64,000 bases of DNA from Bifidobacterium sp. (GTDB taxonomy: Bacteria; Actinomycetota; Actinomycetes; Actinomycetales; Bifidobacteriaceae): assembly GCA_024104275.1 (NCBI GenBank), contig JAGGHK010000001.1, positions 372,001-436,000 on the forward strand, read 5' to 3'. This document shows positions 36,262 to 60,026 of the stretch, one piece after another (position 1 is the stretch's first letter; each line of letters opens with the position of its first letter). The notes under the pieces are model-generated. The model worked only from the letters and a program-made list of their open reading frames with translations, had not been told where the DNA came from and made no database searches. The position numbers and the translations under genes are program-made.

Positions 36262-36306
36262 TGTGGTCGGATGACCCCGGTTATCCACATCGTCCGGGCG
36301 TGTCGC
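36262..36306 (-). promoter_or_regulatory. Shared regulatory element upstream of the M23 gene
   Basis: Reading on the minus strand: GCGACACGCC (36297-36306), 7 bases, TGTGGATAACC (DnaA-box-like TTATCCACA at 36281-36289 on the plus strand), 4 bases, then TCATCCGACCACA. The same order and nearly the same bases occur upstream of comEA at 47060-47102. Confidence 0.65.
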
Positions 36307-36316
36307 AAAAGTTATG

Positions 36317-36353
36317 CACCGGATATCCACTGCGCAGTGGTGAATATCCGGTG
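36317..36353. promoter_or_regulatory. 37-base near-perfect palindrome upstream of tag
   Basis: Outer arms CACCGGATAT (36317-36326) / ATATCCGGTG (36344-36353), enclosing the perfect 14-base palindrome CCACTGCGCAGTGG (36327-36340) and three extra bases. No T tract follows on either strand, so not an ordinary terminator. It lies just before the tag promoter, as an operator or RNA hairpin would. Confidence 0.6.
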
Positions 36354-36385
36354 CCGCCGAGGCTCGAGAGTATAAAAGACTTACA

Positions 36386-37048
36386 GTGAAAGAAAGTAAC
36401 GCTCGACGTATGAGTGCCAAACGGAAGTCGGCAAAGACCACCGCAGCCAAGGCCGGGGAGAGGTCAACGGAACAACACAATGACGACCTGCAACGCTGCT
36501 GGCCGCAACCGTATCTGGGCCTGAGCCACGACATGTTGATTTATCACGACACCGAGTGGGGCACGCCCTGCTACGATTCGCAGGCCTTGTTCGAGCGGCT
36601 CGCGCTGGAGGCCATGCAGACCGGACTTTCGTGGAATACCATCATCAACAAACGCAAGGCCATTGACTCGGCCTTCCATGATTTCGATATCGAACGCGTC
36701 GCACATATGGATGACGAAATACCCGAACTGATGGAGAACAAAGCCATCATCCGCAACAGAAGAAAGATCGAAGCCACCATCCATAACGCACGGATCGCAC
36801 TGGACTTGGGAATGCCCCTCGCCGACTATATCTGGAGTTTCGCCCCCGACGGCCCTCACATCAACAGTCCGAAAAGCCGTGAGGAAGTGCCGGCGGTCAC
36901 GCAGGAATCAATCGATATGAGCAAGGCCATGAAGAAGGCCGGGTTCAAGTTTGTCGGGCCGACAACCATGTACGCATACATGCAGTCAATGGGTATGGTA
37001 AACGACCATCTGCAAGGTTGCTTCAGATGCCCCGAAATAAATAATTGA
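36386..37048 (+). CDS. tag: DNA-3-methyladenine glycosylase I
   Basis: A 220-residue (from GTG) TagI protein removing 3-methyladenine from DNA. Diagnostic residues: RCWPQP, LIYHDTEWGTP (Glu and Trp of the active pocket), FERLALEAMQTGLSW, FKFVGPTTMYAYMQSMGMVNDH, and the zinc-binding C-terminus with GCFRCP. Two starts are possible: GTG 36386, nine bases after TATAAA (36371-36376), which would fit a leaderless message, or ATG 36410 with no clear ribosome binding site. A basic, Ala/Lys-rich N-terminal tail precedes the fold. Confidence 0.93.
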   Translation: MKESNARRMSAKRKSAKTTAAKAGERSTEQHNDDLQRCWPQPYLGLSHDMLIYHDTEWGTPCYDSQALFERLALEAMQTGLSWNTIINKRKAIDSAFHDFDIERVAHMDDEIPELMENKAIIRNRRKIEATIHNARIALDLGMPLADYIWSFAPDGPHINSPKSREEVPAVTQESIDMSKAMKKAGFKFVGPTTMYAYMQSMGMVNDHLQGCFRCPEINN

Positions 37049-37086
37049 TAAACGATTCAATACGGGTTTGTATGACTCTGCTCGAA

Positions 37087-39132
37087 TCATTGTCCGCACA
37101 AACCTTGCCGTAGCATGATGCCGTAAGCCTCGCGGCCGCCTCCCTCGCCCGGGGTCAGATGGGTACCATCGTCGTAGAAATACTCGGGATGGGCATTGCT
37201 TAACGAATACCAGTCGAGCAGACCGACGTTCTTGTGTTTGGCGACTACCGAACGCAGAATACGGTTGTTGGAATCCTGCCATTCGGTAGGCGAACGGACG
37301 GTGGTGAGATACAGCGGCTCGTTGCCTACCGACGCTATCAGATCCTCCACCTGTTGTTCGTCAGCGATTCTGTCGTTGGTCCCGAGGGCCATGATGACGA
37401 CGCTTCCGGCCTGACCTTGCGCCTGATGCTGGCGATAGAGGTCGGCACCCGTGCCGAAATGACGACCGACCATATTGTCCTGAACGCTTGCCGGAATGTG
37501 CTCCTGGACGAAATCGTGCGCACCCATTTCCACGGAATCGCTGATGATCAAAGGATTCGCGCTGCAGGTACCAGTCGCAGCGTCATACGTCCAGCCTTTA
37601 GTACTGAGGTTCTTCGGCACTTTGGCGGCAATCGGCACCAGACGTGGTGGCAGGTTTCGCGAAGGCTTGGGTACCGCGGACTTGCGCAGTGTCAAAAGGT
37701 CGCGTTTGATCGGGGTGGCTATGCCAAGGCTACGCCCGACGGAAAGATATTCCTCACGCAGAGCATCCGAGCGTTTGGCGGCAATCTGGTTGAAATCGAC
37801 AGGAAGGACCGTGCAAAACACCACGGCCACCACACCCAAAAGAGCAAGGATTTTGGTGACCAGACGCATTTCGCGGAACGGTGCCCTCCCCTCGGGCATG
37901 ACTTTGCGCACTGCCTCGGCCATCTGATAGAAGGCCTCGCTGACACCCCAAAGTATGAGGAACTGGACGATCCACTCCCACGAACGCAAAGGTTGGGTAC
38001 GAATGGCAGGGTTCATGAATTCGAGCAGCGGGTAATGAACCAGATAGATCGAGAACGAACGAGAACCAATATAACGTAATACTTTCGATCCCAGCAGCGA
38101 ACGGCAGACGTTGCCAGGAACGAGGATGACGGCAATCAACAACGCGACGATAAGCGCGATGGCCTGAAAACCGCCACGGTAGAGCACGGTGTCGTTGCCT
38201 TTGGAAATGCAATATAGGATGATTAGGGCGCCAAGAAGGCAAAATCCTGCGGCAGCTAGGAGAAGGTTTACCGATGATGACCAAGGTTCGGTATTCGTAG
38301 TTTGGCCGTTTTCTGCTTTTCCGGCTTCCTTATTCGATTCATTCTGTTTTTTTCTCGCTTGTTCTACTGTGAACGCAAGTAAGGCACCGATCATAAGTTC
38401 CGAAAAGCGAGTGTCAAGCCCATAATAGACGCGGGAAACATCGGCTCCAGGCACATAAAGAATCATCATCAAAGCTGTGGAAACGATGGCTAGCGCCAAA
38501 GTTATGAGGAACTTGGCATGTAACTTGAGATTGAGCCGGCGCATCAGCCAAAGCAAGGACACCCAGACCAGATAGAATTGCATCGTAACTGCAAGAAACC
38601 ACAGATGCGTGAGTGGTGACGGAAGTCCTGACGCGGCGAAATAGGAGACCTTACGAAAGATGTAAACCCAGTTGCTGACATAAAGCGCACTCGGCAAAGC
38701 ATCAAGATGCAGTTTGGGAAGCATTCCCGGGGACAGGAAATAAGCTGCGGGCACGACCAAAGCGATCAGAGAAAGCAGAGGAAAAGTCAGACGTTTGATT
38801 TTCCGCCAAAGATACTTTGCGTAATGAAAGCCTTGTTTACTGGCCATTCGTCTCTCGACACTTCCGGTAATCAGGAAACCGGAGATGACAAAGAATATCG
38901 TGACGCCCAGGAATCCACCGCTCAATAGCGATGGGCGGACATGGTAAGCCACCACTCCGATGATTGCCAAGGCACGCAAACCATCGATTGCGTTATTTCT
39001 GGAAGAACCGGAGGGACGGGAAGCGCTGGAGGACTCAGAAGAATCAGATTGATGGGAGCCGACAGCAGAACATAAAGAACCGGAAGCCTTCATTCCAGCC
39101 GTCTCTAGGCTTTTCCCGGTGCGTGGCAACAT
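37087..39132 (-). CDS. Acyltransferase-3 / SGNH fusion membrane protein (OatA-like)
   Basis: A 681-residue protein. The N-terminal half is an acyltransferase-3 domain with about ten membrane helices, starting AIDGLRALAIIGVVAYHVRPSLL and including FFVISGFLITG. The C-terminal part (about 490-681) is an extracellular SGNH-type domain with IISDSVEMGA (catalytic Ser), MALGTND (Asn) and DDGTHLTPGEG (Asp/His). It probably O-acetylates a cell-wall polymer or exopolysaccharide, as OatA does for peptidoglycan. A Ser-rich stretch precedes the membrane part. Start uncertain: ATG 39132 with GAGG close by, or ATG 39207 without one. Confidence 0.9.
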   Translation of the reverse strand: MLPRTGKSLETAGMKASGSLCSAVGSHQSDSSESSSASRPSGSSRNNAIDGLRALAIIGVVAYHVRPSLLSGGFLGVTIFFVISGFLITGSVERRMASKQGFHYAKYLWRKIKRLTFPLLSLIALVVPAAYFLSPGMLPKLHLDALPSALYVSNWVYIFRKVSYFAASGLPSPLTHLWFLAVTMQFYLVWVSLLWLMRRLNLKLHAKFLITLALAIVSTALMMILYVPGADVSRVYYGLDTRFSELMIGALLAFTVEQARKKQNESNKEAGKAENGQTTNTEPWSSSVNLLLAAAGFCLLGALIILYCISKGNDTVLYRGGFQAIALIVALLIAVILVPGNVCRSLLGSKVLRYIGSRSFSIYLVHYPLLEFMNPAIRTQPLRSWEWIVQFLILWGVSEAFYQMAEAVRKVMPEGRAPFREMRLVTKILALLGVVAVVFCTVLPVDFNQIAAKRSDALREEYLSVGRSLGIATPIKRDLLTLRKSAVPKPSRNLPPRLVPIAAKVPKNLSTKGWTYDAATGTCSANPLIISDSVEMGAHDFVQEHIPASVQDNMVGRHFGTGADLYRQHQAQGQAGSVVIMALGTNDRIADEQQVEDLIASVGNEPLYLTTVRSPTEWQDSNNRILRSVVAKHKNVGLLDWYSLSNAHPEYFYDDGTHLTPGEGGGREAYGIMLRQGLCGQ

Positions 39133-39332
39133 CAACCTCTTTTTCGCCCTTGTGCTTTCGTGACCATTCCAGCTTGGGTCACAAGGCAGTACATTAACAA
39201 AAGGCATAGATGCTTTGACATGATTGACACGCCGCTATTGTGTCTATTGGAACGCAAATGATAAGAAACTTTTCTGCGCGGATTTCTGGAACCAAATACC
39301 ATAAGCCGATCAGACTGACCGTGACTCATTAC

Positions 39333-39366
39333 GAAAAATTCCCGGAACCTTTAAGATTCCGAGAAT
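39333..39366 (-). terminator. Terminator downstream of tRNA-Asn
   Basis: Stem ATTCCCGGAA (39338-39347) / TTCCGAGAAT (39357-39366), one G-T pair, followed by TTTTTCG on the minus strand. Confidence 0.85.
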
Positions 39367-39376
39367 TTTCCTTCCG

Positions 39377-39449
39377 CTCCCGCAGCTGGGCTTGAACCAG
39401 CGACATTCTGATTAACAGTCAGACGCTCTGCCAACTGAGCTATGCGGGA
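39377..39449 (-). tRNA. tRNA-Asn (anticodon GTT)
   Basis: 73 bases without encoded CCA. Acceptor TCCCGCA/TGCGGGA with discriminator G, D arm GCTC-AGTTGGCA-GAGC, anticodon arm TCTGA-CTGTTAA-TCAGA with anticodon GTT, variable loop ATGTC, T arm GCTGG-TTCAAGC-CCAGC. All stems pair fully. Confidence 0.97.
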
Positions 39450-39488
39450 ATGTCCCGTGTGGAGCTTGAAGCACCGCACAAGAAATAT

Positions 39489-39516
39489 ATCTTATACAAG
39501 AATCGTCTTCGCGCAA
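39489..39516 (-). promoter_or_regulatory. Candidate tRNA-Asn promoter
   Basis: Minus-strand TTGCGC (39511-39516), a 16-base spacer and TAAGAT (39489-39494). The GCGACACGCC motif (39524-39533) lies seven bases upstream of the -35 box. Confidence 0.55.
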
Positions 39517-39570
39517 CCCCAATGGCGTGTCGCTTGGATTTTGCGGAGTGTCTCTACTCTGGCATCGTGC

Positions 39571-40614
39571 TCAGACGCTGATGACGTTCATGGGCATGGC
39601 GGAGTCGATGGGGAAATCCGGGGACGACGGACGCACGCCGGCCTCGACCAGGTTGACGCCGAGCATGGCGACCATGGCCCCGTTGTCGGTGCACAGCTTG
39701 ATCTGCGGGATGCGGACCTCCACACCGTGTTCCTTGCCGACCTCGAGCAGCTTGGCGCGCAGCTGGGAATTGGCGGAGAAACCGCCGCCGACGATCAGCG
39801 TCTTGGAACCGTATTCCTCACAGCCATGCATGGCCTTGTTCGCCAGCACAGTAGCTACGGAATCGGCGAGCGAAGCGCAGACGTCATCGACAGGAATCTC
39901 TTTGCCGGCCGCTTGCTGGGCCTCGACCCAACGAGCCACAGCCGTCTTGACACCCGAGAAGCTGAAATCGTAGGGATGTTCCTTGCCGGCCTTGCCTTTG
40001 GTGAGACCTTGCGGCACTTTGATGGCGTGTGGATCGCCGAGCTGGCCGTGTTTGTCGATATGCGGGCCGCCCGGATACGGGAAGCCAAGGAGACGCGCGA
40101 CTTTGTCGAAGCACTCCCCTGCCGCGTCGTCAAGTGTCGTACCGACCACATCCACGTGACGTGCGACATCCTCAACGTGCAGCAGCGAGGTGTGGCCTCC
40201 TGAAACAATCAACGCCAACGTATCCTTCGGGAACGGGCCGAACTGCAGCTGGGTGACGGCGATGTGGCCGATGACATGGTTGATGCCGTAGATAGGCTTG
40301 TTTGCAGCCCATGCCAGCGCTTTGGCACCGGAAACGCCGACCGCCAGGCATCCGGCCAAACCAGGACCTGCCGAAACAGCTATGGCATCGACGTCGGACA
40401 GTTCCATATTCGCGTCGGCCAGAGCCTTTGAGACCACGGGCACGAATGCCTCTGCATGGGCTCGTGAGGCGATTTCCGGGATGACCCCGCCGTAACGTGC
40501 GTGCTCCTCCATCGAGGACGCCACGACGTTGGAAACCAGTGTACGTCCCCGAACGATGGCCGCTGCGGTTTCGTCGCAGGTCGATTCGATGCCCAGTACT
40601 GTCGGTTCGCTCAT
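39571..40614 (-). CDS. tsaD: tRNA t6A threonylcarbamoyltransferase (TsaD)
   Basis: A 347-residue Kae1/TsaD enzyme, catalytic subunit for N6-threonylcarbamoyl-adenosine at tRNA position 37. Motifs: GIESTCDETAAAIV, the metal-binding HVIGHIAV, GPGLAGCLAVG, VSGGHT and GGGFSAN. Its ATG overlaps the stop of rimI (ATGA). The set tsaE, tsaB, rimI, tsaD lies on one strand, giving all dedicated t6A proteins except TsaC. Confidence 0.98.
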   Translation of the reverse strand: MSEPTVLGIESTCDETAAAIVRGRTLVSNVVASSMEEHARYGGVIPEIASRAHAEAFVPVVSKALADANMELSDVDAIAVSAGPGLAGCLAVGVSGAKALAWAANKPIYGINHVIGHIAVTQLQFGPFPKDTLALIVSGGHTSLLHVEDVARHVDVVGTTLDDAAGECFDKVARLLGFPYPGGPHIDKHGQLGDPHAIKVPQGLTKGKAGKEHPYDFSFSGVKTAVARWVEAQQAAGKEIPVDDVCASLADSVATVLANKAMHGCEEYGSKTLIVGGGFSANSQLRAKLLEVGKEHGVEVRIPQIKLCTDNGAMVAMLGVNLVEAGVRPSSPDFPIDSAMPMNVISV

Positions 40615-41222
40615 TGATGTTGCTCCATGTTCTGTTTTTCGCTGTTAAATCCCATGATATGCGGCTCGAGGTCCAACGCCATTTCGATGGCATCGACGTC
40701 TTCGGGCTGATAGTAATGCCGCAAGAGGCCGATGTCCTTGAATCCAAAGCCATGGTAGAGACGTTTCGCCGGTTCGTTGTCGACTCGGACTTCCAGTTTG
40801 ATGCGACGGATGCCTTGAAGTCGTGCAAGGTGAATCAGACGACCCAAAAGGCCTTTGGCGACACCGTTTCGTTGAAACCGTTTGGCGACGCCTATGGTCG
40901 TGATTTCAGCTCCGCCATCGGCATGCCACATTCCGGCGTAGCCGCGCATGATCGTACCAGCTGTGCTCCGTTGAAGCTGTTGCTTTTGCGCTTGGGCATG
41001 TTCTCGAATATCGCGGGCATCATTGGTGGAATCGGCAGCGGCATTGGCAACGTTCACTTCAGTGACATCGGTGACATCGGCAAGATAGATCCTTGAGGGA
41101 TCCGTCACCTCGCTGCGCAAGGTTTCTTTATCCCAAGCCTGCGAGGCGAAAAGCTTTGTTTCGAGTTTGGTCGCAGAATCCAAAGCCCATTGCTGGTCAA
41201 GCTCATCAAATTTGATGATCAT
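40611..41222 (-). CDS. rimI: Ribosomal-protein-alanine N-acetyltransferase-like (RimI)
   Basis: A 203-residue GNAT-fold acetyltransferase. Acetyl-CoA-binding motif A is ITTIGVAKRFQRNGVAKGLL (RxxGxA/G type), followed by LEVRVDNEPAKRLYHGFGF, as in RimI. A variable Ala/Asp/Gln-rich insertion of about 40 residues splits the front half of the domain. ATG 41222 fits the family's N-terminus; ATG 41252 would overlap tsaB by 23 bases. Neither has an ideal ribosome binding site. In actinobacteria rimI is regularly sandwiched between tsaB and tsaD, as here. Confidence 0.93.
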   Translation of the reverse strand: MIIKFDELDQQWALDSATKLETKLFASQAWDKETLRSEVTDPSRIYLADVTDVTEVNVANAAADSTNDARDIREHAQAQKQQLQRSTAGTIMRGYAGMWHADGGAEITTIGVAKRFQRNGVAKGLLGRLIHLARLQGIRRIKLEVRVDNEPAKRLYHGFGFKDIGLLRHYYQPEDVDAIEMALDLEPHIMGFNSEKQNMEQHQ

Positions 41223-41229
41223 CTGGTGT

Positions 41230-42171
41230 TCAGGCCTTCGTGGCTCCGGCATGATTCAGGACATGTTTCAGTGGATTGGGCACGGAAACGTCCGGACGAC
41301 GCAGGTACAGCGGTTCCACTGGTTTTGTGGGGTTCTCACCATTGTTGCCATTGCCACCAAGTTTGCCGTTTGCATCGCTTGCATCATTTGAATCAATGCC
41401 GTTGCCTTCCAAGGCGCATTCGGTGAAAATCTGCAGGCCCGTTGCCCCGGCGTCCAATACGGAGTGGTCGATGACACAACCAAGTATGTCGCCAAATCCC
41501 TGCCAGGCATCCGCATATTTCAAAGCGCCATGACCGACGATATCGATGCGGTATTCGCTCTGTACAGGATTTTTCGCATGTAGCTTTTGGACGGCCTGAT
41601 TGATTCGCTCGACGATATGCTGGGGATAATCGATATTCATATCGATCAGTGTGGAAACGAACGGTTTCGTATTACCGGAGGCAGGTTCCTGGCTTACGTC
41701 ATTGCCGTCGATGGTTTGCTTTTCATCGCTATATAGCGCGAAGTACAGCTGGCGACGTCGAGCGTCGTTGACGGCCAATGTCAGGTGATGGACAGATTCA
41801 GCGTTTGTCGCCGTTTCGGTTCCCGTGAGAAAATCGCAATCCGCAAGCCGGGTATCGCCCTCACGCTTGAGTTTCATCATCCACGTCTGAGGCTCAAGGA
41901 TATCCTGACCGAGCAGCTGGGCACCGGTGGCGTACGCGATGGCTTTCGCCGCCACCACGCCGGCACGAAGACCTGTGAACGGGGCAGGCCCAATGCCGAC
42001 GACAATGCGGTCAAGGTCCTGCGGCGTGAGCCCGGCTTGACCAACGGCCTTGCCGATATTGACCTGCAATTTTTCGACGTGGGTGCGTGAATCGGTCTCG
42101 ATAATGGGTTCATCGCCCAAAACACCTACCGTCGAACCGAACGAGGTGTCGATGACCAATGTGTTCATCAT
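41230..42171 (-). CDS. tsaB: t6A scaffold protein TsaB
   Basis: A 313-residue ASKHA-fold protein that heterodimerises with TsaD. N-terminus NTLVIDTSFGSTVGVL and the VVGIGPAPFTGLRAGVVAAKAIAYATG segment are typical. It is longer than Escherichia coli TsaB (231): the centre has a Thr/Asn/Gln-rich insertion and the C-terminus a Gly/Asn/Asp repeat-like stretch (about 265-290). Start at ATG 42171, with GGAG eight bases upstream. A direct repeat of TTGTAC (42250-42270, minus strand) lies in front and may be part of its promoter. Confidence 0.95.
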   Translation of the reverse strand: MMNTLVIDTSFGSTVGVLGDEPIIETDSRTHVEKLQVNIGKAVGQAGLTPQDLDRIVVGIGPAPFTGLRAGVVAAKAIAYATGAQLLGQDILEPQTWMMKLKREGDTRLADCDFLTGTETATNAESVHHLTLAVNDARRRQLYFALYSDEKQTIDGNDVSQEPASGNTKPFVSTLIDMNIDYPQHIVERINQAVQKLHAKNPVQSEYRIDIVGHGALKYADAWQGFGDILGCVIDHSVLDAGATGLQIFTECALEGNGIDSNDASDANGKLGGNGNNGENPTKPVEPLYLRRPDVSVPNPLKHVLNHAGATKA

Positions 42172-42354
42172 ATTTGCTGCTCCTACCACTCACGCTGACC
42201 GCCCAGCGATCATTTAATTTCCGGACGTCAAAGATTCATGCCGTTGTTACTGTACAACTTTCGTACAACCGACGAAAACCGCCACGTCCTGAACGACGCG
42301 CAGAACATTGGTAATTCCCTCATAATGCCGTGAAACGAATCCACCGACTTCCGC

Positions 42355-43937: not shown

Positions 43938-44052
43938 CACATTCCTCGATTCTTGAGACTACCTGATACAACCGCCGTAACGGCACAACGCTTACGACTT
44001 TCTATGATATTCAATGTGGTGTCACAGGTGGACATACCCCGTGTCTTCCCGA

Positions 44053-46125
44053 TTAATCGGGCTTTTGAAGCCGTTCGAACATTTGTTCGGTTTCTTTGAG
44101 CCATATTGTTCCTTTGCTTCGCAATTGCATGAGATGACCGTCATTACCTACAGCAGAACCATCGCTACTATGTCTCGTCGTTATTGATGACATTGCTTTG
44201 AACAGCGCCACCAAACCGATTTCGCATACCACAATCATCAATGCGCCACCGACGCCTCCAGGCCATGGCATGGTCGCGGTTTGGCAATCGCCAATGGTAT
44301 CCGCACACCACTGCATCACCGACGTCCCACAGCTGGAGAGCCAGACAAAGGCGAACGCCAGATGTGGAGCCCATGACGACAACACCAAGCCTGCCAGCCC
44401 GGTAAGCGTCGAGAAATCCACGAACGGTGCCACCACGAGGTTTGCAGGCATAGACAGCAGCGGCAGCGTCGGTGTCATAAGCACCTGTATCGGCAGAGTG
44501 AAAAGCTGGGCCGCGATAGTCACAGACATGCCTTCAGCAAGGAATTTCGGCAGCAGAGCCGAAAGACGTTCAGCTATGGGTTTTGCACACAGCACAATAC
44601 CCAGCACTGAGGCGCAGGAAAGCGCGAATCCGTAACTTCTGGACATGGCCGGGTTGACGAGCAGCACGAGGATGACCGTCCAACTCAACGCGCTGATCGC
44701 CTGTGGCCTTCTGCCCGCAAACATCGCGGACGAGGCGAAGATGTCCATGATCAGAGCCCGCATCACCGAGTCGGAAGGGTACATGGCGCTCGCGAGCGCC
44801 ACATAGGCCAGCACCGTGAGCACGGCGACCACCTGCCGTGGCAATAGGAACCGGGCGCAACCCGAGCGTATCAGGCTGCCGATCAGCGCGAAATGCCCGC
44901 CGGAGACAGCCATCAGGTGCATGATGCCGGAATCCTTGAAATGCATCTGAAGCAGCGTGGCGAACGTGGCATTCACAGGTTCCCGCTTGAGCGCGCTCGC
45001 GCCCATGAAATCCTGCCCCAAAAGACCGATGGTCAGCCCCGGAACAAGCACACGCCCTTGGTCGGAAAGGCCTTCCGTCACCGAAAAGAATGAACGTTGC
45101 ATGGAGTCAACCAGCCGTTTCGCAGGCGGCGCGCGTTCTATAAGTCTTGTTTTCGCGTTGTCATCTATGGTCAGCCAGATTGGCCGCATCCCGTAGCGGG
45201 CGGTCTGCAGCGTACCGGAAGTCTCTATCGTCTGACCGTCCGAAAGCCGCCCGCACACCTGTTTGTTGGCATATAGGACGATACGTGACCTGCTGGCTTG
45301 ATAAATACCGTTATGGCCGATGCTGATCAAACGCGCGTTCGCCTGACAGTCGGCTTGCCAAGAGCTCGCCGCAGTAACCGGCGAATCAATACGCACACTT
45401 GCTCCGACTGCACTTTCTCCTTCACGCACAAGCGCCATAGCTGGATCTCGATAAGCCATCGCATCTGCACTCATCGAGGCGATGAACGCGGCCAAGGCCG
45501 AACACGCGAGAACGGCCACCCCAATCGTCCGGTTCCCATGTAATTCTTTGAAAATCAGCGAAATTCCGGCTTCCAACTGATGGGATTCTTCTTTTGTATG
45601 GGGCTCATCAGGCACAGGATGCGCAGCTAAGGACGATATATTCGAGACCGGAACGTTTGTTCCATTTCCGAATTGCGGCTTTCTGCGGATTCTTGTCGAT
45701 TTCTGAGCATTGGACTTGGTAGCAGGATATTGTCCAACTAACCCGTTTGAAAGCGACTGGCTTCGACCGAACCACCGACGAGATATGGCAAGCAGGGCAA
45801 CGATACCGGCCAGTAACAAAAACAATACGACTATCGGTAAAATGGTTTCAGTGTTCAATGAAGTTTTCAGCGGGTTCATGACTTTGTCCAATGGAGAAAT
45901 CGCCAATGAAGTGCTGTCAGATCCAACAGCATTATGATTTGACGAAGACGCGCTGCTTTCCTGCCCCGTAATCAGAGCGAACAAAGTGTGCGAGCCAAGA
46001 GCCGCGATCCACACGCATAGCGCCACCGGCAGCATCCGCCAGTCACGACTGCCTTGTTCATGGTCGTCGCCCTTGTCGAACCTGTCGACGGGATTACTGC
46101 CTAGAGGGCTATCAATACTTTTCAT
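44053..46125 (-). CDS. comEC: ComEC/Rec2-family DNA uptake channel, without beta-lactamase domain
   Basis: A 690-residue membrane protein. The ComEC core follows after about 260 residues: LPGLTIGLLGQD, the characteristic FKDSGIMHLMAVSGGHFALIG, LMDIFASSAMFAGRRPQAISAL and many helices. The N-terminal part has three helices and an OB-fold-like segment. The protein stops soon after the last helix and lacks the C-terminal metallo-beta-lactamase domain seen in Bacillus ComEC. It begins one base into the comEA stop (TGATG), so the two are coupled. It could form the inner-membrane channel for single-stranded DNA. Confidence 0.9.
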   Translation of the reverse strand: MKSIDSPLGSNPVDRFDKGDDHEQGSRDWRMLPVALCVWIAALGSHTLFALITGQESSASSSNHNAVGSDSTSLAISPLDKVMNPLKTSLNTETILPIVVLFLLLAGIVALLAISRRWFGRSQSLSNGLVGQYPATKSNAQKSTRIRRKPQFGNGTNVPVSNISSLAAHPVPDEPHTKEESHQLEAGISLIFKELHGNRTIGVAVLACSALAAFIASMSADAMAYRDPAMALVREGESAVGASVRIDSPVTAASSWQADCQANARLISIGHNGIYQASRSRIVLYANKQVCGRLSDGQTIETSGTLQTARYGMRPIWLTIDDNAKTRLIERAPPAKRLVDSMQRSFFSVTEGLSDQGRVLVPGLTIGLLGQDFMGASALKREPVNATFATLLQMHFKDSGIMHLMAVSGGHFALIGSLIRSGCARFLLPRQVVAVLTVLAYVALASAMYPSDSVMRALIMDIFASSAMFAGRRPQAISALSWTVILVLLVNPAMSRSYGFALSCASVLGIVLCAKPIAERLSALLPKFLAEGMSVTIAAQLFTLPIQVLMTPTLPLLSMPANLVVAPFVDFSTLTGLAGLVLSSWAPHLAFAFVWLSSCGTSVMQWCADTIGDCQTATMPWPGGVGGALMIVVCEIGLVALFKAMSSITTRHSSDGSAVGNDGHLMQLRSKGTIWLKETEQMFERLQKPD

Positions 46126-47021
46126 CAGACCGTCACCTGCCCGCGCATCTTCTCCAGCGTCTTCTGCCCGATGCCCGAAACCTTGAGCAACTGGTCAACG
46201 CTGGTGAAACGGCCTATGGACGACCGGTAGTCGATGATCTTCTGGGCCATCACCGGGCCCACGCCCTTGATTTGTTGCAATTGCGTGCTGTCCGCGGTGT
46301 TGAGGTTGATCAAATCACTGCCATTGCTTGAAGGCCCAGTCTGCCCGGCAGAAGGGTCAGCCTGAACAGGTGAATTTGTCTGTGTCGCAGAGGCATCACT
46401 TCCGGGGTTTTGCCCTCCAGCTCCAGCGGATGTTGAAGTGGAACCTGCAGCCCCACCGGATTTCGGAGCATTCCCTTGTGCCGGACCTGAACCCTTGACT
46501 TTGGAACCGCCACCTGTCACAGTTGAACTGATGGACGAAGCTTCGGCCTGTTGCCTGTTGTAATTGATCGCCTGTGTCACCAACATGGTCAGACTTGCAC
46601 ACAACGCCACCACCAACACCAAAATCACCACCACCGCCTGAGTGGGTTTGAACACCAATCTTGGGATGGTTCGTTGTTTGGTAGCGGATTCGGCGATCGG
46701 ATCCACTTGCATATCCTCGCTGACAGGAGTATTCATGACAGAATCAAAATCATCAACTTCTAAAGTATGGTCGATGCTCGTAGATTGCTTTTTGGGTTTG
46801 CTTTCCGACGTGTTTTTCTGCTCGATAAGCCAGCTATCAATGGGCGGCAACGGCGGCAGACCGACACGTAGCAGATCCGCATCGAGATCTTGCTTGTTTT
46901 CGTACGATTCATTTTCAGGTGATTCAGTATGCGAAACGGCAGAGGAATATAGCCGTTTCGTCAAAGACCGGCTTTTATCGTTTGTCCTGCCATGGAAATG
47001 AATACCCATACCTTCAAGCAT
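46125..47021 (-). CDS. comEA: ComEA-family helix-hairpin-helix DNA-binding protein
   Basis: A 298-residue protein with a long acidic cytoplasmic N-terminus (about 125 residues), one membrane helix (about 127-150), a Gly/Ser/Pro/Gln-rich linker (about 165-230), and the C-terminal HhH pair INLNTADSTQLQQIKGVGPVM and QLLKVSGIGQKTL. It binds incoming double-stranded DNA in natural transformation. The linker and N-terminal tail are longer than in Bacillus ComEA (205). Upstream lies the shared element at 47060-47102 with DnaA-like boxes. Confidence 0.93.
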   Translation of the reverse strand: MLEGMGIHFHGRTNDKSRSLTKRLYSSAVSHTESPENESYENKQDLDADLLRVGLPPLPPIDSWLIEQKNTSESKPKKQSTSIDHTLEVDDFDSVMNTPVSEDMQVDPIAESATKQRTIPRLVFKPTQAVVVILVLVVALCASLTMLVTQAINYNRQQAEASSISSTVTGGGSKVKGSGPAQGNAPKSGGAAGSTSTSAGAGGQNPGSDASATQTNSPVQADPSAGQTGPSSNGSDLINLNTADSTQLQQIKGVGPVMAQKIIDYRSSIGRFTSVDQLLKVSGIGQKTLEKMRGQVTV

Positions 47022-47277
47022 GGCCGGACAGAATGCGAAAGTCCAGCCAGAACGACCACTGTGGTCGAATGATAGGGGTTATCCACATTTGAGGCGTGTC
47101 GCGCCCTCGACCGCCGGATCGTCCACATTCATCCACAGCATGTCACCAAAATAAATGGGCCTCAACGGCAGCATTCAAACCAAACCCATCCGACAATCTC
47201 CCATATCCTCTATATCTTCCAGTATTGAACCGTAATGTATCGATGAAAAAATTCAGAAGAACCATGAATACAAAAGA
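47022..47277. other. Region between comEA and leuS ends
   Basis: No gene seen. It holds the comEA upstream element, three DnaA-box-like 9-mers on the plus strand (TTATCCACA 47079-47087, TCGTCCACA 47119-47127, TCATCCACA 47129-47137), and AT-rich sequence leading to the leuS terminator. Confidence 0.6.
47060..47102 (-). promoter_or_regulatory. Shared regulatory element upstream of comEA
   Basis: Minus-strand order: GCGACACGCC (47093-47102), 5 bases, TGTGGATAACC, 4 bases, TCATTCGACCACA ending at 47060, about 40 bases before the comEA start. It matches the M23 upstream element in every block. Confidence 0.65.
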
Positions 47278-50588: not shown

Positions 50589-50611
50589 GGAGTAGCCCCT
50601 GGCATACGGCG

Positions 50612-51544: not shown

Positions 51545-51551
51545 CCGAAAC

Positions 51552-53597: not shown

Positions 53598-53731
53598 ATT
53601 CACTCCTTTTGCCGGGTATCCCCTGTCGTCTGACACACAAATGTGTGCCATCTCACTGTTTTCATTGTGCCGCACCCCGCCGATGAAAGGAACGCCGACG
53701 GATCCAGTCATGGTTACCATGCTCACCAAGG

Positions 53732-54895
53732 TCATCTGACCAGCAACATCCATACGGCCCACAGAGCGAAGACGGCCACATACGGCCAAAAATGTGACTT
53801 ACTGATGGCGATGAACTCGCGGATAAAGGCCGTCGGCCAGTAATAGCTTTTGGTATGGCTGCCGATGCCATCGGATTTAAGCCCCATTTTACGGGCGTAT
53901 TCGCTGGCACGGAACACGTGGTAGTCACTGGTGACTACGGCCACGCGGTAAGGGCAAGACATGCGGTTTTTCATTCGCTCGACACGACCGGGCTTGCCTT
54001 CTGGCGATGAGACAGAAGGCGGTACTGAAGAAGATACTGATACTTCTTGATTATTGTTACTGTTTTTAGACGCTGATTGATGTCCCTGCAAATCTGGATT
54101 CCGGGATGCAACGGAATCATTCAAACCGCAACGTTCGTCCATAATCACTTTGGAATTGCGCAGATTTTCCAAGGTCGTGGTGGATCGGTCTTCCTTGATG
54201 ATGTCGTCGGCGGGCACTCCCCTCACTTCGATCAGATAGCGTTTCATCGCCTCGGCCTCGCTGATTTCCTCGTCGGCTCCCTGGCCGCCTGAAACGATGA
54301 ATAGGCCATGCCCGTCCTGCCGGTTCCACAAGTCGACCGCCTTGTCGATTCGCCCGCGCAGCAGCGGCGTCGGTTTGGTGCCTTGCAACCCTGCCCCGAG
54401 AATGATGATGTAATCGTATTTTCGACGTCTTGGAAGGATTCGATAAATCGTGGAATAGAGCAACAGCGCTGCGAACGTGAAGAAGAACCAAAGTCCTTCC
54501 AAGGCAATCAGGGCACCCACGCCTTTGCCCCAGCGGGGCGCATTGAAATATAAAGTCAACGGATAAACCGCAACACAAACCATCATAACCAGGGCGAACA
54601 AAGCAGGCAGGATAGTGGAAAGCGAAAACCCTTCGTGATGGATGACGATAACAGTGTTGACGAACAGGAATCCCACGACGATAACCGGCGTGAACACGGC
54701 CACCAGCACAATCGGGATGAAGGCCCAATCGCGCCAAAAATCAAGCATCAGGGCACCGGAAAGGCTCAACACGAACAACGCGAGCCAAATAGCATTCCGG
54801 AAACGTCGCGGTTCCTGGATGACGGAGAAAACAAGCAGCAAACCTAACAATACGGCAGGCCCATACAATAAAGCAGTCTGCCACCAATCAGTCAC
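53732..54895 (-). CDS. YdcF/DUF218-family membrane protein
   Basis: A 387-residue protein with five or six N-terminal membrane helices (about 1-150), then a DUF218 domain: YIIILGAGLQGTKPTPLLRGRIDKA, IVSGGQGADEEISEAEAMKRYL and STTTLENLRNSK, and later VVTSDYHVFRASEYARKMG. A Ser/Asn-rich loop (about 265-300) interrupts the domain. DUF218 proteins (ElyC, SanA, YdcF) are implicated in envelope metabolism; reaction unknown. The C-terminus ends in another hydrophobic segment. Confidence 0.88.
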   Translation of the reverse strand: MTDWWQTALLYGPAVLLGLLLVFSVIQEPRRFRNAIWLALFVLSLSGALMLDFWRDWAFIPIVLVAVFTPVIVVGFLFVNTVIVIHHEGFSLSTILPALFALVMMVCVAVYPLTLYFNAPRWGKGVGALIALEGLWFFFTFAALLLYSTIYRILPRRRKYDYIIILGAGLQGTKPTPLLRGRIDKAVDLWNRQDGHGLFIVSGGQGADEEISEAEAMKRYLIEVRGVPADDIIKEDRSTTTLENLRNSKVIMDERCGLNDSVASRNPDLQGHQSASKNSNNNQEVSVSSSVPPSVSSPEGKPGRVERMKNRMSCPYRVAVVTSDYHVFRASEYARKMGLKSDGIGSHTKSYYWPTAFIREFIAISKSHFWPYVAVFALWAVWMLLVR

Positions 54896-55068
54896 CGTTC
54901 GTCTCCCCTGTCATTCCTATTTTTTCAAGCATTGAGTATTTATTTTGTATATTTGATACGTTTGCATGCTTTGGATTTGCGTATTCGACGTTCTTTACCT
55001 ATCGGCTTTGCCGCTCTTGCGACGTTCTTGCGAACCGTAAGAACGGCAAAACTCCTCTTCTATGACGT

Positions 55069-56640
55069 TCAGGCCTTACGCTCGTTGATGTCGGCAAGAC
55101 CGGAGACATCGCTGGCATAGAAGCGGGACAAATCACCGGCGAACTTCTTGATGCTTTTCGGGGCGGTATAGAGCATGTGCCCTGCCGGGTAATAAGTGAA
55201 CGCCACGTTTCCGCGCAACGGCTTGGGCAGCTCCATATGGTCGATGTCGTATTCGGTCTGGTTGAACGGCGTACACAGGTCGTAGATGCCGTTGCCGATC
55301 ATCACCTTCAGAGTCGGTTCGTGGGCAATGGCTGCGGCGAGATCCGTCGTTACCAGCGGGAACGGGATATGCGGGCCCCAAGACGTCTTGGCACCTTCCG
55401 GCAGCGTGTGCCACCAGGTCCATCCCTTGCCGGGTTCCATGGAATCCCAGTCGAAATCGGCGAAACCACGGCGTTCCTCGGTGCCGTCCCAGCCGAGTTC
55501 GTCACGCAGGTAGGCGTTGGCGACGCTGGAATAGGCGGGGTCGAGGAAACTGTCGTCGACCACGAAGGTCTCTTCCTGGGCGGTGCGGTCGAGGTCGTAG
55601 CCCTTCGAGCGACCGTCGTAGCGACCGACGATCATGCCGGTGTCTTCACCGCTGTTGCGGCGAAGCAATTCCTTGCGGAAGCGCATGTCTACGACTCGCA
55701 GGTCGGAGTCGTAGACGTACCGCTCATCGAGCCCGGTCAATTCCGCGTAACGTTTGGCGACGTTGCGCTTCGTGTTTTCGTCGATGGCATCGCCTTGCGC
55801 CAAGGCGGTGCGTAGCTCTCCGTTGGCGAATTCACGCGCGACGTTCAGATGCGTTGCGATGTCCACGTCCTGGCCGGCCTTGCCGTGGTAATGTGCGACC
55901 GTGGCGAACGTCGGGAAATAGCCGATGTAGAACTGGTCGGAGGTGTCGAACGTATGGGCATAATCCAAAATGTTCGAAATCAAAACGAGACCGTTGAGCG
56001 CGACCCCGTCCTGCTGAAGCCGGTACGACAATGCCGCTCCGCGCGTGGTGCCATAGGATTCGCCCAGCACGTATTTCGGCGAGTTCCAGCGGTGGAAGCG
56101 GGTCAGATAGGCGCGAATGAACGCGCTGAAGCCTTTGACGTCGCCATCAACGGAATAGAGCTCCTTCTTGGCCTTTTCAGCAATCTGCGAGAATCCGGCG
56201 CCCGGTGCGTCGATGAAAACGATGTCGGAATAGGGCAGCATGGTGTAGGGGTTGTCTTTCAGACCATAGGGAGCTGCAGGAACCGGAGCGGCATCGGGGA
56301 TGTCGATTCGCTTGGGACCCAGCGACCCCATCATCAGGAATGTCGAGGATGAGCCGGGGCCGCCATTGAAGATGAAGGTGACCGGACGCGAGGTGTCGGT
56401 TTTGCCGGTTTCATCACTCAGTTCGAAAGCGGTATAGAAATCGCTGGCCGCAGGTTTCACATCCTTGGTATCGATGGTGATGGTCCCGACGGTCGCCCGA
56501 TAATGAATCGTCTCACCGTTGAGTTCCATAGTGTGATTTGTCGTGCGTTCGCCGGTCGGCCGAAGTTTCGGCTCCGCCGGCTTCTCGGTTGGCATATTTT
56601 CCTTGGCATTGGTTTGCACCGATGACGCTTCCTCGCTCAT
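55069..56640 (-). CDS. S10-family serine carboxypeptidase
   Basis: A 523-residue alpha/beta hydrolase of peptidase family S10. Signature: oxyanion region FIFNGGPGSSST, catalytic Ser in YVLGESYGTTRGA, Asp in GNGIYDLCTPF, and His in YPAGHML. No signal peptide or membrane helix is seen, so it is probably cytosolic, with a role in peptide degradation. An AAGGAG site precedes ATG 56640. S10 enzymes are mainly eukaryotic but are regularly found in bifidobacteria. Confidence 0.92.
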   Translation of the reverse strand: MSEEASSVQTNAKENMPTEKPAEPKLRPTGERTTNHTMELNGETIHYRATVGTITIDTKDVKPAASDFYTAFELSDETGKTDTSRPVTFIFNGGPGSSSTFLMMGSLGPKRIDIPDAAPVPAAPYGLKDNPYTMLPYSDIVFIDAPGAGFSQIAEKAKKELYSVDGDVKGFSAFIRAYLTRFHRWNSPKYVLGESYGTTRGAALSYRLQQDGVALNGLVLISNILDYAHTFDTSDQFYIGYFPTFATVAHYHGKAGQDVDIATHLNVAREFANGELRTALAQGDAIDENTKRNVAKRYAELTGLDERYVYDSDLRVVDMRFRKELLRRNSGEDTGMIVGRYDGRSKGYDLDRTAQEETFVVDDSFLDPAYSSVANAYLRDELGWDGTEERRGFADFDWDSMEPGKGWTWWHTLPEGAKTSWGPHIPFPLVTTDLAAAIAHEPTLKVMIGNGIYDLCTPFNQTEYDIDHMELPKPLRGNVAFTYYPAGHMLYTAPKSIKKFAGDLSRFYASDVSGLADINERKA

Positions 56641-56765
56641 TTCGTAACTCCTTGGATTGACTGCTGTTCTTCTTCAAGCCTAACGCAGAGCCGTCTCAAT
56701 GAAATATCCGGGAAACGAAGCAATACTCAAAACCGAAACCGCGTCTACGCCGATGTGGCCAGAAC

Positions 56766-56803
56766 AAATGAAAAAGGCTTTTGAGGATTTCCTCAAAAGC
56801 CTT
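56766..56803 (-). terminator. Terminator downstream of tRNA-Ala
   Basis: Perfect 13-bp stem AAGGCTTTTGAGG (56774-56786) / CCTCAAAAGCCTT (56791-56803) and TTTTTCATTTG on the minus strand, six bases past the tRNA. Confidence 0.92.
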
Positions 56804-56808
56804 AACCG

Positions 56809-56881
56809 TGGAGCTAGGGAGATTCGAACTCCCGACCCCCTCCATGCCATGGAGATGCGCTACCAGCTGCGCCATAGCCCC
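56809..56881 (-). tRNA. tRNA-Ala (anticodon GGC)
   Basis: 73 bases without CCA. Acceptor GGGGCTA/TAGCTCC (one G-T), discriminator A, D arm GCGC-AGCTGGTA-GCGC, anticodon arm TCTCC-ATGGCAT-GGAGG with anticodon GGC, variable loop GGGTC, T arm GGGAG-TTCGAAT-CTCCC. The GCGACACGCC motif lies 71 bases upstream (56952-56961). Confidence 0.96.
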
Positions 56882-57126
56882 ATTCTTTTAAGTTGCTGGC
56901 CTCTTGCGAAGCCTTAGATATCCTACAACAAACTGGCCCGATGACCAAACCGGCGTGTCGCTAAAGGATTATCAACAACAATCGAAAGAAGACGACACCA
57001 TGGTTTTGTTCGATTACCACTCTTAGAAAAACCAAGAGAACGCAATGGAACAAAACATACAAAGAGAATACAAACGCAAGGAAAGTCAGACTAAAAAGAC
57101 TTATGCCAGTCCTTGTCCAACCGTAC

Positions 57127-58389
57127 TCATTTCGCAGTGCCTGACGTCCCGGTAGTGCTGCCTCCCGACTGAGAACTGGAAGTGGAACCAGACTCATTGC
57201 CGCCGGTACCCGTGCCGCTTGAAGTCGAACCTCCCGTGGAACCGGAGTCTGTAGCACCGCTGCCAGTGCCCGTACTGCCATGCGAGGAATCCGTGGAACC
57301 ACTGCTGGAACCAGTTGAATCCGAACTCGTGCCGCCAGTGGTTGTACCAGAATTGCTGTTGCCAGAATTGCTGCCGTTTGAATTGCCTGAGCCAGTGGTG
57401 CCGGAATTATTGGAAGTCGACCCGCTCTGCGAACCGGAATCAGAGGTGGAACCGGAGTTGTTCTGATTGGTCGTTCCGTTGTTCTTTTGCGTGTCGCCGT
57501 CGGTTTTCTGGTTGTTGTCGGTCGAGGTATTGCCCGAATCGTTTTGCTGTCTGCGGTTCTTGGTGGCCGAGTTGGTGACGATATTGCGCACCACATCGTC
57601 GGTCCCCTGCCCCTTCGTGGCCAGCGAAATGATTCCAGCAGTGATTCCTACTGCAACCAAAGCGCTGACGACAGCGACCACGATTGCCAGCCGCTTGTAG
57701 CGCTTCTGTTTCGAGGAATCAAACACGCGAATATGGCCATCACTCTGCCCTGGACCACCCTTGAGCTTTTGGCCGTTAAGGGCTTTGGTCGAATCTGAGA
57801 CCGTTTTTGCCGCCTCTTTTTGACCGACCGTCGCCATCACACTGGTCTTGCCCGAAGCCGAAGGTGTCAGTACTTGTGTTGCATCCGACTCAGCTTTGGC
57901 GTTTTCTGCGGCATTCTTATTGCTGGCGTTCTTGCCGTCCTTAGCATTTGCAGCCAAGGTCTTGGTTGCATCTTTCCGCCCTGAGGCTTGCTCGGCTTTT
58001 TGGGTACGCGCCAAAGCAGCCAGACTCGGCGACGTTCCATCCATGCGCAACACCGGCGCACCGGAAACACCTTGAGCCGGATTCGCCAATCGACCATGAT
58101 ATTGGACATCGGAACCAATAACCCGTGTTTCGTCATCAGAACCCGTACTGACAGCACCTTGCTGTTCCCCATCATCGCTCTGAGGGACGTTTCCCTGCAA
58201 TTTCCTGCCGGATTCGTTGAGCACATTCTGATAGATCTGCGAGGCCACCGCAGACACGATGGAACCAACCGCCACACCGATCACGGAACCTGCGATACCG
58301 ATTTTGGCCGAGAGCAGGAACGAAGTGACCGCAGCAAGCGCACCGGCTATGATCTGCGAGACCGAAATCCCCTTGAAAAAATTCTTCAT
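57127..58389 (-). CDS. Membrane protein with long Ser/Gly/Thr-rich tail, unknown
   Basis: A 420-residue protein. The N-terminus has two close hydrophobic segments rich in Gly, Ala and Ile (about 7-55, GALAAVTSFLLSAK and GSVIGVAVGSIVS), then a charged cytoplasmic region of about 170 residues. A third membrane helix (LAIVVAVVSALVAVGITAGII) lies at about 230-255. The last 140 residues are almost only Ser, Gly, Thr, Asn and Asp, presumably extracellular. No LPxTG anchor or catalytic motif. ATG 58389 is preferred to a TTG at 58398. Function unknown. Confidence 0.75.
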   Translation of the reverse strand: MKNFFKGISVSQIIAGALAAVTSFLLSAKIGIAGSVIGVAVGSIVSAVASQIYQNVLNESGRKLQGNVPQSDDGEQQGAVSTGSDDETRVIGSDVQYHGRLANPAQGVSGAPVLRMDGTSPSLAALARTQKAEQASGRKDATKTLAANAKDGKNASNKNAAENAKAESDATQVLTPSASGKTSVMATVGQKEAAKTVSDSTKALNGQKLKGGPGQSDGHIRVFDSSKQKRYKRLAIVVAVVSALVAVGITAGIISLATKGQGTDDVVRNIVTNSATKNRRQQNDSGNTSTDNNQKTDGDTQKNNGTTNQNNSGSTSDSGSQSGSTSNNSGTTGSGNSNGSNSGNSNSGTTTGGTSSDSTGSSSGSTDSSHGSTGTGSGATDSGSTGGSTSSGTGTGGNESGSTSSSQSGGSTTGTSGTAK

Positions 58390-58540
58390 GATACACAAGG
58401 TTAACGGAAAGAAATAGGAAAAAGCTGAAAGCCGACAAAACCTTGCCGAACGCTTACAGGACGACTATTTCGCATGACGGAATCCAATGAGGAAACGCCA
58501 TTTACTTTCTCATCTCATCTGCAAGAAATTTTTCCTTACT

Positions 58541-59605
58541 TCACTTCTTGCGCCGATCGTGCGCCCAATCCTCCACCCGACGGAACAGATTGACGATGAC
58601 CGAACGGTCCACGATGGACATCAACACCGCCATGAAAATCAACGCAAAACCGATCAGCGTCGTCAATGTCAATGCAGTTCCCCAAAACAGGATCGAAAAC
58701 AGTTCGGAAAACAGGCTTTCCGTACACATCACCACGGAAGCAGAGGACGCGGAGACGTGGGCGAGACCGATGTTCTGCATGAGCTGGGCCAAGGTCGTGG
58801 CGCCGATGAACAGGTAGAGGAAGCTTACGACGATTTTCGGTTCCAGCCATGAGGCGTTCGGCAAGGGTTCGGTCAGCAGTGCGCCGATCAGGAACAACAC
58901 GCAGGCCACGGCGAACTGGACGAAGGTGACCGCGATGGCATTGAATTTCTTGGAATAGATGCCAAGATAGGTCAGGTTGAAGGAGAAGATGACGGCGCAA
59001 CCGATGGTGAGCCAGTCACCCAACGACAAGGAAAGCGAGAAGCTGCCGGGTTTCAGCGAGACGAAACCGACACCGATCAGGCAGATGACACCGGCGATGA
59101 TGTTGATGTTATGCGGCCTGTTTTTCGTGGCGAACCAGGCGGCGAACGGCGTGAGTACGCAATAGGAAGCGGTCAGGAACGCACTTCTGCCGGGGTCGAT
59201 CGTCAAAAGCCCCTTGGTCTGCAGCACCATCGTTCCCCAATAGGTGGCTCCGACGATAAGGGCGGGAACAAGCATTGACTTTTTAAGCGCGGGAATGATG
59301 CTTCTATGGAACAGCAGCAGCATGATCAGGCACGCGCCTCCGGTACGCATGGCCATGAGCCATTGCGCGGTTATCGCCGCCATCGCGATTTTGGCGACCA
59401 GATAGCTACCACCCCAAAGTGCGGCGCAGCACAGCAGCATAAGACAAGCCAGATTGGGCGGAAAATTGCGGGAAAGACGGCTGCGCAGACCTTGGAAACC
59501 ACGGCGTCCAGTGCCTTTCGACGCAAGGTAGGCAGCAAATGAATGGGCCACGGCCTTCTCCCCCTTGTTCATCTTCGACATGCTCGCGTGAATATCAGCT
59601 GCCAT
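58541..59605 (-). CDS. EamA/DMT-superfamily transporter
   Basis: A 354-residue membrane protein with ten hydrophobic segments in two EamA repeats. Repeat 1 starts at ACLMLLCCAALWGGSYLVAKIAM (about residue 53) and repeat 2 at LGDWLTIGCAVIFSFNLTYLGIYS; the second ends with ASSASVVMCTESLFSELFSILFWG, a typical conserved segment. A basic cytoplasmic N-terminus of 50 residues precedes it. Substrates of this family are metabolites such as amino acids or nucleotide precursors; not predictable here. AAGG lies seven bases before ATG 59605. Confidence 0.88.
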   Translation of the reverse strand: MAADIHASMSKMNKGEKAVAHSFAAYLASKGTGRRGFQGLRSRLSRNFPPNLACLMLLCCAALWGGSYLVAKIAMAAITAQWLMAMRTGGACLIMLLLFHRSIIPALKKSMLVPALIVGATYWGTMVLQTKGLLTIDPGRSAFLTASYCVLTPFAAWFATKNRPHNINIIAGVICLIGVGFVSLKPGSFSLSLSLGDWLTIGCAVIFSFNLTYLGIYSKKFNAIAVTFVQFAVACVLFLIGALLTEPLPNASWLEPKIVVSFLYLFIGATTLAQLMQNIGLAHVSASSASVVMCTESLFSELFSILFWGTALTLTTLIGFALIFMAVLMSIVDRSVIVNLFRRVEDWAHDRRKK

Positions 59606-60026
59606 GCCGGGCCTTCTCTTTCATCTTCCGTCTCAGGCGAAGCACCTCAACATTCTGCGCCAGCTATGTTTCTCTTCACATCCGACACCAAAACAACCAT
59701 GGGGCACATCGCTTCAACAGACATTTAAACCACATATGTTGTTATCTAAATTAGGTCATCTTTCCATCGCGACACGCCTAGAAATACAACGAAATCACTG
59801 CAGGATGAACTTTTCACGCGTTGGTTACATTTCTGTATCACAGGGTCGCGGATTCGAGCGCTGAAAGCGGGAAACCCAACCACGCAATGCATTTTCCTTC
59901 CGGCTGTTTCCCGGATCGAACCGGATAGGTGCGGTGAGCAATGTCACACGATTTGATTAACGAACACGGGCTTCAAGACGTAAGATGGAAGCGTATAGAA
60001 AGCAGTTCGATTGAAAGGACAGCATT
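59606..60026. other. Intergenic region between divergent EamA and PNPOx-like genes
   Basis: No gene or tRNA seen. It contains one copy of GCGACACGCC on the plus strand (59769-59778), about 250 bases before the PNPOx-like gene, and a weak promoter for that gene (TTCAAG 59972-59977, 16 bases, TATAGA 59994-59999). Confidence 0.5.

Follow-up and report, generated by a model that had tools for sequence, protein, structure and literature searches.

A 10-base motif, GCGACACGCC, that recurs between the genes of a 64,000-nucleotide stretch of a Bifidobacterium sp. genome (assembly GCA_024104275.1, contig JAGGHK010000001.1, positions 372,001 to 436,000; hereafter the window) is probably a docking site of the regulator WhiA. 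We put the probability at roughly 70% that this WhiA core is used in two types of promoter, those of translation genes and those of competence genes, and that at the latter it forms part of a composite element with DnaA boxes and a further sequence, here called the competence box. A site common to tRNA and competence promoters is well supported by its position, its fixed architecture and its recurrence in relatives. The competence box and the co-location of WhiA and DnaA sites are the new part, the likely binder of the common site probably being known already. The analysis establishes the sequences, their spacing, their recurrence in relatives, the gene content, and the presence of whiA and dnaA.

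The 10-base motif and its WhiA-like core

The window holds five exact copies of GCGACACGCC, where and on the strands that the original prediction had placed them, and all five are intergenic when likely genes are taken as the longest non-overlapping open reading frames (ORFs) plus the tRNAs. The accompanying estimate of well under one expected copy also holds, as 100 dinucleotide shuffles gave a mean of 0.27 and a maximum of four, and none reached five. The genome-wide scan that had been proposed as a check returned 20 exact copies (2.16 Mb, 19 contigs) vs. eight of the reversed pattern, an enrichment factor that is only rough because CpG steps are fewer in the reversed pattern. Nine of the 20 are in competence elements and four in tRNA promoters (three sense, one antisense). 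Of 101 genomes of the genus, many (though not all) contain CGACACGCC by itself about twice as often as its reverse.

Within the motif stands GACACGCC, a sequence compatible with both published forms of the WhiA core, GAYACRCY and GACAC. In Mycoplasma gallisepticum, WhiA is reported to bind a core of the form GAYACRCY, which is kept in the rpsJ promoters of most of the examined whiA-retaining species in several phyla, including Actinobacteria, and which is more G+C-rich there in G+C-rich genomes (PMC11701221). The Streptomyces WhiA site is GACAC (PMC3781837). The host genome (G000) has one whiA match, with three WhiA domains above cut-off and a match to NCBIfam TIGR00647 (E 1.1e-71). Its alignment with chain 8dy7 of WhiA (E 4e-79) covers residues 22-325 of 333 and takes in the helix-turn-helix. 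At rpsJ, sense-strand GACACGCC lies 222-257 bases 5′ of the start codon in 26/30 loci of the genus, the host genome included, a count made on related species (loci from 30 of 41 genomes) and without a shuffle control. Two of the other four loci carry the reverse complement of GACACGCC at -245. We assign the 10-mer to WhiA as its probable binder because its core and its rpsJ location match the published sites and whiA is present.

The original prediction had proposed the site of an unrecognised activator, common to tRNA and competence promoters. The sharing is borne out; "unrecognised" is probably wrong, since the motif fits the WhiA core and marks rpsJ. That an activator other than WhiA, not yet recognised, binds GCGACACGCC at both kinds of promoter is improbable. 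Such an activator would suit the 10-mer, which exceeds the Streptomyces GACAC in length and in constancy, and the WhiA link is drawn from sequence. However, both the core and its place at rpsJ agree with WhiA sites already published, whiA is present, and the leading GC is lost at many of the relatives' sites.

With WhiA as the binder, the core would mark promoters of the translation machinery, i.e., rpsJ and tRNA units. The genome has 48 tRNA matches, of which 40 are unit heads (no tRNA within 130 bases upstream). Allowing one mismatch, CGACACGCC occurs between -125 and -35 of 17/40 heads in the sense direction and of 5/40 in the antisense direction, whereas shuffles gave a mean of 0.44 and a maximum of three. 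A TANNNT hexamer starts 25-28 bases past the motif in 11 of the 17, and in zero to three of them in each of five other 4-base bins. By this spacing, a short gap usually separates the end of the motif from the -35 box 3′ of it, a position that could bring WhiA into contact with region 4 of sigma. The two tRNA promoters of the window illustrate the arrangement:

39524..39533, minus strand: 10-mer with WhiA-like core, tRNA-Asn (exact match)
39511..39516, minus strand: putative -35 of tRNA-Asn, TTGCGC (from sequence)
39489..39494, minus strand: putative -10 of tRNA-Asn, TAAGAT, 29 bases past the motif and just outside the 25-28 bin
39376..39449, minus strand: tRNA-Asn(gtt) (tRNA match)
56952..56961, minus strand: 10-mer with WhiA-like core, tRNA-Ala (exact match)
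56943..56948, minus strand: putative -35 of tRNA-Ala, TTGGTC (from sequence)
56920..56925, minus strand: putative -10 of tRNA-Ala, TAGGAT, 26 bases past the motif
56808..56881, minus strand: tRNA-Ala(ggc) (tRNA match)

The placement directly upstream of the -35 box at tRNA-Asn had been described correctly, as had the distances of 71-75 bases to tRNA-Asn (39449), tRNA-Ala (56881) and the first comEA ATG (47021). Seven tRNAs were found among 118 loci of relatives, with the two of G097 counted twice (L064, L203). By eye, three of the relatives' tRNAs are unit heads: the tRNA-Asn of G097 and of G067, with the core, and the tRNA-Arg of G005, without it.

The composite element of candidate competence promoters

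The window copies at 36297 and 47093 are part of a longer element, GACACGCC-N5/7-TGTGGATAAC-N9-YCGACCACA, in which the gap between GACACGCC and TGTGGATAAC is five bases in the comEA copy and seven in the M23 copy. The 28-base core of this element, with up to three mismatches, is found at 12 places in the host genome and the reversed control at none. It matches 39/101 genomes of the genus, with the control at zero in all of them. With an open middle and one mismatch, 55/189 genomes of the family match, in 3/16 genera. A scan of related bifidobacteria had also been proposed; core and competence element recur there, with the WhiA core absent in some.

We compared 55 elements from seven copy-rich genomes. 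They were chosen by the 28-base core only, so its own conservation among them is by construction; the WhiA core, the -35 and the -10 played no part in the choice. The elements of G000 and G094, which seem closely related, are partly non-independent. The sequence GACACGCC, with up to one mismatch, stands 3-7 bases upstream in 54/55. A -10-like [TC][AT]NNNT occurs at +37/+38 in 48/55 (best other adjacent offset pair, 11/55), and a -35-like T[TG]GNNN at exactly +14 in 30/55, at +10 in 12, and in at most five at other tested offsets. The spacing suggests that the WhiA core lies near -87 and the 28-base core at about -78 to -51 relative to the likely transcription start. The -10 is often 6-7 bases before the ATG, which suggests leaderless mRNA. 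An alternative-sigma reading of the 28-base core, with TGTGGA as -35 and CCACAG as -10, was considered and is disfavored, as sigma-A-like -35 and -10 hexamers recur at +14 and +37/38. The two elements of the window and their genes are as follows:

36297..36306, minus strand: 10-mer with WhiA-like core, M23 gene (exact match)
36262..36289, minus strand: element core TGTGGATAACCGGGGTCATCCGACCACA (DnaA box, N9, competence box), M23 gene (core pattern)
36219..36224, minus strand: putative -10 of the M23 promoter, CATAGT, 37 bases past the core
35440..36201, minus strand: M23 peptidase gene (ORF; Pfam PF01551, E 6.5e-11)
47093..47102, minus strand: 10-mer with WhiA-like core, comEA (exact match)
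47060..47087, minus strand: element core TGTGGATAACCCCTATCATTCGACCACA of comEA, left half DnaA box, right half competence box (core pattern)
47040..47045, minus strand: putative -35 of comEA, TGGACT (from sequence)
47017..47022, minus strand: putative -10 of comEA, CATGCT (from sequence)
46128..47009, minus strand: comEA (PF12836 and TIGR00426 above cut-offs; ATG position)
44056..46125, minus strand: comEC, next after comEA (PF03772, E 4.8e-38)

A leaderless comEA start at 47009 is probable; it is likelier than the first ATG (47021) because the latter overlaps the putative -10. For the M23 gene, a downstream ATGATGG behind the ribosome-binding-site-like GGAAAGGAG appears a likelier start than the start of the ORF.

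The suggestion of a single extended promoter class for tRNA and competence genes did not survive. The motif abuts the -35 box at tRNAs and lies about 45 bases further upstream at competence genes, where a DnaA box and a distinct competence box accompany it. Nor does the 10-mer look like a piece of some dispersed repeat, mobile or structural, that has no part in regulation. Some copies are similar over about 75 bases (L001, L018), as a repeat would be, but across the 55 elements positions that belong to no module mostly carry less than 0.2 bits, and the information climbs once more at the -35, the -10 and the ATG. We did not find, in these elements, the sharply bounded conserved body, placed without regard to gene starts, that a mobile repeat would show. 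The middle varies between species while the ends stay, and an ORF on the same strand follows 12/12 elements of the host genome, with a coherent set of genes. We regard a repeat as very improbable.

The right half, CATYCGACCACA, occurs 20 times in the host genome and its reverse not at all; the 20 are the 12 elements and eight more sites. By strict patterns, 14 of the 20 have a -10-like hexamer at 36-38, nine have a -35-like one, and 17 have either. The WhiA core lies upstream with up to one mismatch at 16 sites in the sense direction and at one, that of recA, reversed. The genes behind CATYCGACCACA are a candidate competence regulon, as one box is common to the promoters of DNA-uptake and DNA-processing genes: comEA (comEC next), a ComF-like gene, yraN-comM-dprA, recA-recX, and ssb. 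Genes of pilus type are a TadZ/CpaE-like ATPase, a DUF4244 pilin-like gene with a TadE-like one (by eye), and a CpaB-like gene. The comF and CpaB models matched significantly but below their curated cut-offs. Other boxes precede the M23 peptidase gene, a DUF4160 pair, HicB-like (by eye), RelB-PIN and AbiEi-like genes, and a membrane protein (by eye). The AbiEi label is weak: in PADLOC one member scored E 0.011 and a second 2.3e-6, the ORF of L263 had no match, and we found no Pfam match among three members scanned and no NCBIfam match for the one scanned. The HicB-like protein (P0001) has no Pfam match. Four copies of a small protein family with the signature RIHxRHPDITDEDVxAAW (L033, L036, L038, L040) also lie behind boxes, in a toxin-antitoxin-like layout with a small acidic protein next; the one member searched had no match in Pfam, NCBIfam or PADLOC.

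Across the seven genomes, the first genes behind the elements are those of the TadZ-like cluster (in six genomes), CpaB-like genes (six), comEA (five), M23 (five), pilin-like genes (four), AbiEi-like genes (four), and FtsK/EssC-type ATPase genes (three). Another 21 elements precede mostly the same kinds of genes. A comEA scan gave 11 loci; the two examined, those of the named bifidobacteria ESL0784 and ESL0682, both have the element before comEA. Two further features were seen under the boxes. Genes of toxin-antitoxin type (HicB-like, HicA, BrnT, RelB-PIN, AbiEi-like) are found at L041, L162, L188, L264, and L214, and in relatives there are FtsK/EssC-type ATPase genes together with a weak WXG-like gene, resembling type VII secretion (L165, L167, L176, L180, L207, L211).

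DnaA boxes, the right half and points against the proposal

The left half of the element, TGTGGATAA, is TTATCCACA, a perfect match to the DnaA box consensus. The same sequence is found between dnaA and dnaN in the host genome, which has a single DnaA_C match. Perfect TTATCCACA boxes number 40 in this genome vs. six of the reversed control. Of the 40, 16 stand no more than 150 bases from a competence box, 13 are in the oriC/dnaA region at C15:54.9-70.3k (dnaN/dnaA, a ParA-like gene by eye, crgA), three in the dnaB promoter, and eight elsewhere. Additional copies of TGTGGA[TC] or its reverse precede 26/55 elements (1.6 in mononucleotide shuffles), 34 on the same strand and six reversed, and 28 of the 34 are at -19/-20, -29 to -32, -40, -50 or -70. 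In four sites of the host genome the WhiA core is 10 bases closer to the competence box (-31 vs. -41), i.e., by one helical turn. The dnaB promoter reads GACACGCC-N5-TGTGGATAAC-N8-TTATCCACA. This site (L213, C12:165640-165708) has a WhiA core and two facing DnaA boxes in the layout of a competence element. Upstream of a GrpB-family gene (L219, C11:486324) there is a DnaA box, and a WhiA core that points to the gene.

These boxes raise the question of a plain DnaA regulon, in which DnaA would bind TTATCCACA and a weaker YCGACCACA and activate com and tad genes on replication stall or initiation, with no separate activator. The left half is identical to the oriC box, extra phased boxes lie upstream in nearly half of the elements, the dnaB promoter has a true DnaA box where the right half would be, and the right halves of one relative (G005), CGTCCACA, are more DnaA-like. 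Yet the right half is conserved as CGACCACA and not as a DnaA box; YCGACCACA matches at best 6/9 positions of TTATCCACA. The five bases that precede it have an identity of 0.87 within genomes (224 pairs) and 0.54 between genomes (1261 pairs), a contrast that 0/500 label shuffles reached, so that they are genome-specific, as for a drifting factor, while the DnaA box stays constant. The right half is also kept at recA (L236), yraN (L232), and ssb (L231), with no perfect DnaA box within 150 bases. Together, the drifting bases, the constant DnaA box and the sites without one favor a separate activator for the right half, and we consider the DnaA regulon unlikely.

In the composite promoter that we propose instead, the WhiA core would lie at about -87, with DnaA boxes of the type TGTGGATAA, often several and helically phased, at about -78 and upstream. 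The competence box, YCGACCACA-N3-CCCG, would follow at about -59 to -44, and then a sigma-A-like promoter that often runs nearly into the ATG. The competence box would be the site that defines the regulon, probably bound by a separate candidate activator, and WhiA and DnaA would contribute information on growth, ATP or replication status. We infer from sequence that WhiA, DnaA and the activator bind and act, in which direction they regulate, where transcription starts, and that the organism takes up DNA. WhiA of Mollicutes is described as a repressor (PMC11701221), and its activator and repressor roles in Streptomyces are about equal (PMC3781837).

Several observations weigh against this account. 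Given the mixed roles just described, WhiA could act here in either direction. The rpsJ count has the limits given with it, and 23/40 tRNA heads have no core even when one mismatch is allowed. All five elements of G005 have the right half CGTCCACA and none has the WhiA core, even though this genome keeps tadZ-like, cpaB-like, and comEA-like genes; thus WhiA is not in the regulon everywhere, and at least one lineage can do without the module. The WhiA core is also less general outside the 55 elements, being found within one mismatch in 23/30 elements (29 one-per-genome loci, some overlapping the 55) and in 14/21 elements of eight further genomes. The strict T[TG]G form of the -35 is limited to the 30/55 elements mentioned above. 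Among the 20 sites of the host genome, L229, L232 (yraN-comM-dprA), and L237 have neither -35 nor -10, and L242, L245, and L237 have no WhiA core. L237 lies inside open frames of 203 and 504 codons and is probably due to chance. As for the 10-mer, two of its 20 genomic copies are within long ORFs (L002, L012), and five belong to none of the classes (L004, L006, L011, L013, L014). With one mismatch allowed, the window has 11 matches vs. 8.3 expected, which is ordinary.

This last count is what chance would predict for a CpG-rich 10-mer in a genome of 55% G+C. The exact copies are five against 0.27 expected, however, and the core, unused in selection, is in 54/55, 23/30, and 14/21 elements. As a general explanation, chance is barely credible. 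It is disfavored for the com and tRNA copies and may explain the two ORF copies and the fifth copy of the window, which is L011:

59769..59778, plus strand: fifth 10-mer copy (exact match)

No competence box adjoins this copy, and by eye a -10 at tRNA-type spacing is lacking. It is flanked by RpiR-like and pyridoxamine-oxidase-like genes (labels by eye). L013 and L014 are an inverted pair of 10-mers, 268 bases apart, next to a stretch of N (C11:846188-846465 of G000). A further pattern, YCGACCACANNNCCCG, matches 71/101 genomes of the genus and is of little use alone because its reversed word also matches many (0-2 per column).

Known systems and meaning

Competence regulons with a common box are known from other bacteria, e.g., the ComK box of Bacillus, the SigX cin-box of Streptococcus, and CRP-S in Haemophilus and Vibrio. 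The candidate regulon is like these in that one box stands before comEA/EC, comF, dprA, recA, ssb, and pilus genes. It differs from them in the box itself, CATYCGACCACA, in the Tad type of its pilus, in the attached WhiA core and DnaA boxes, and in its toxin-antitoxin-like genes. Promoters regulated by DnaA through clusters of DnaA boxes are likewise known, and the perfect phased boxes upstream, including those of dnaB here, resemble them; the fixed composite with a competence box and a WhiA core does not. The known WhiA regulon (Streptomyces GACAC; GAYACRCY at rpsJ in several phyla) is alike in the core, the rpsJ promoter and the asymmetry of the site, whereas here competence promoters also contain the core, and so do the promoters of many tRNAs, where its spacing is a preferred one.

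A parallel in gene content is Micrococcus luteus, an actinobacterium in which comEA-comEC and tad genes are needed for transformation (PMC4322843), which supports the Tad and com genes here as one uptake system. The likeness is drawn from the genes, and the upstream regulatory cascade of competence in Micrococcus luteus is stated to be unidentified (PMC12849477). In Gardnerella, of the same family, ComEA and ComEC were found in three genomes and competence was proposed; the part of that account drawn on here mentions no promoter box and reports no Flp1 pilin gene (PMC2928729). Among the open-access matches listed, at the level of titles and the beginnings of abstracts, we found no bifidobacterial competence regulon or box and no WhiA at tRNA promoters.

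The elements could belong to an intact, replication-coupled competence programme, in which DnaA as a gauge of replication, WhiA as a gauge of growth or ATP, and a new activator jointly read the composite promoter. They would switch on DNA uptake together with Tad pili, recA/dprA/ssb and a set of toxin-antitoxin genes, and the WhiA site would also adjust the output of tRNAs and ribosomes. We offer this extension tentatively and think it less likely than not. A defined box at a fixed promoter distance before most of the expected genes makes the control of DNA uptake in bifidobacteria directly testable. If the proposal is true, WhiA gains a role at tRNA promoters and DnaA is linked to DNA uptake. 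Bifidobacteria are hard to manipulate, and the regulon, if real, might open a way to their natural transformation.

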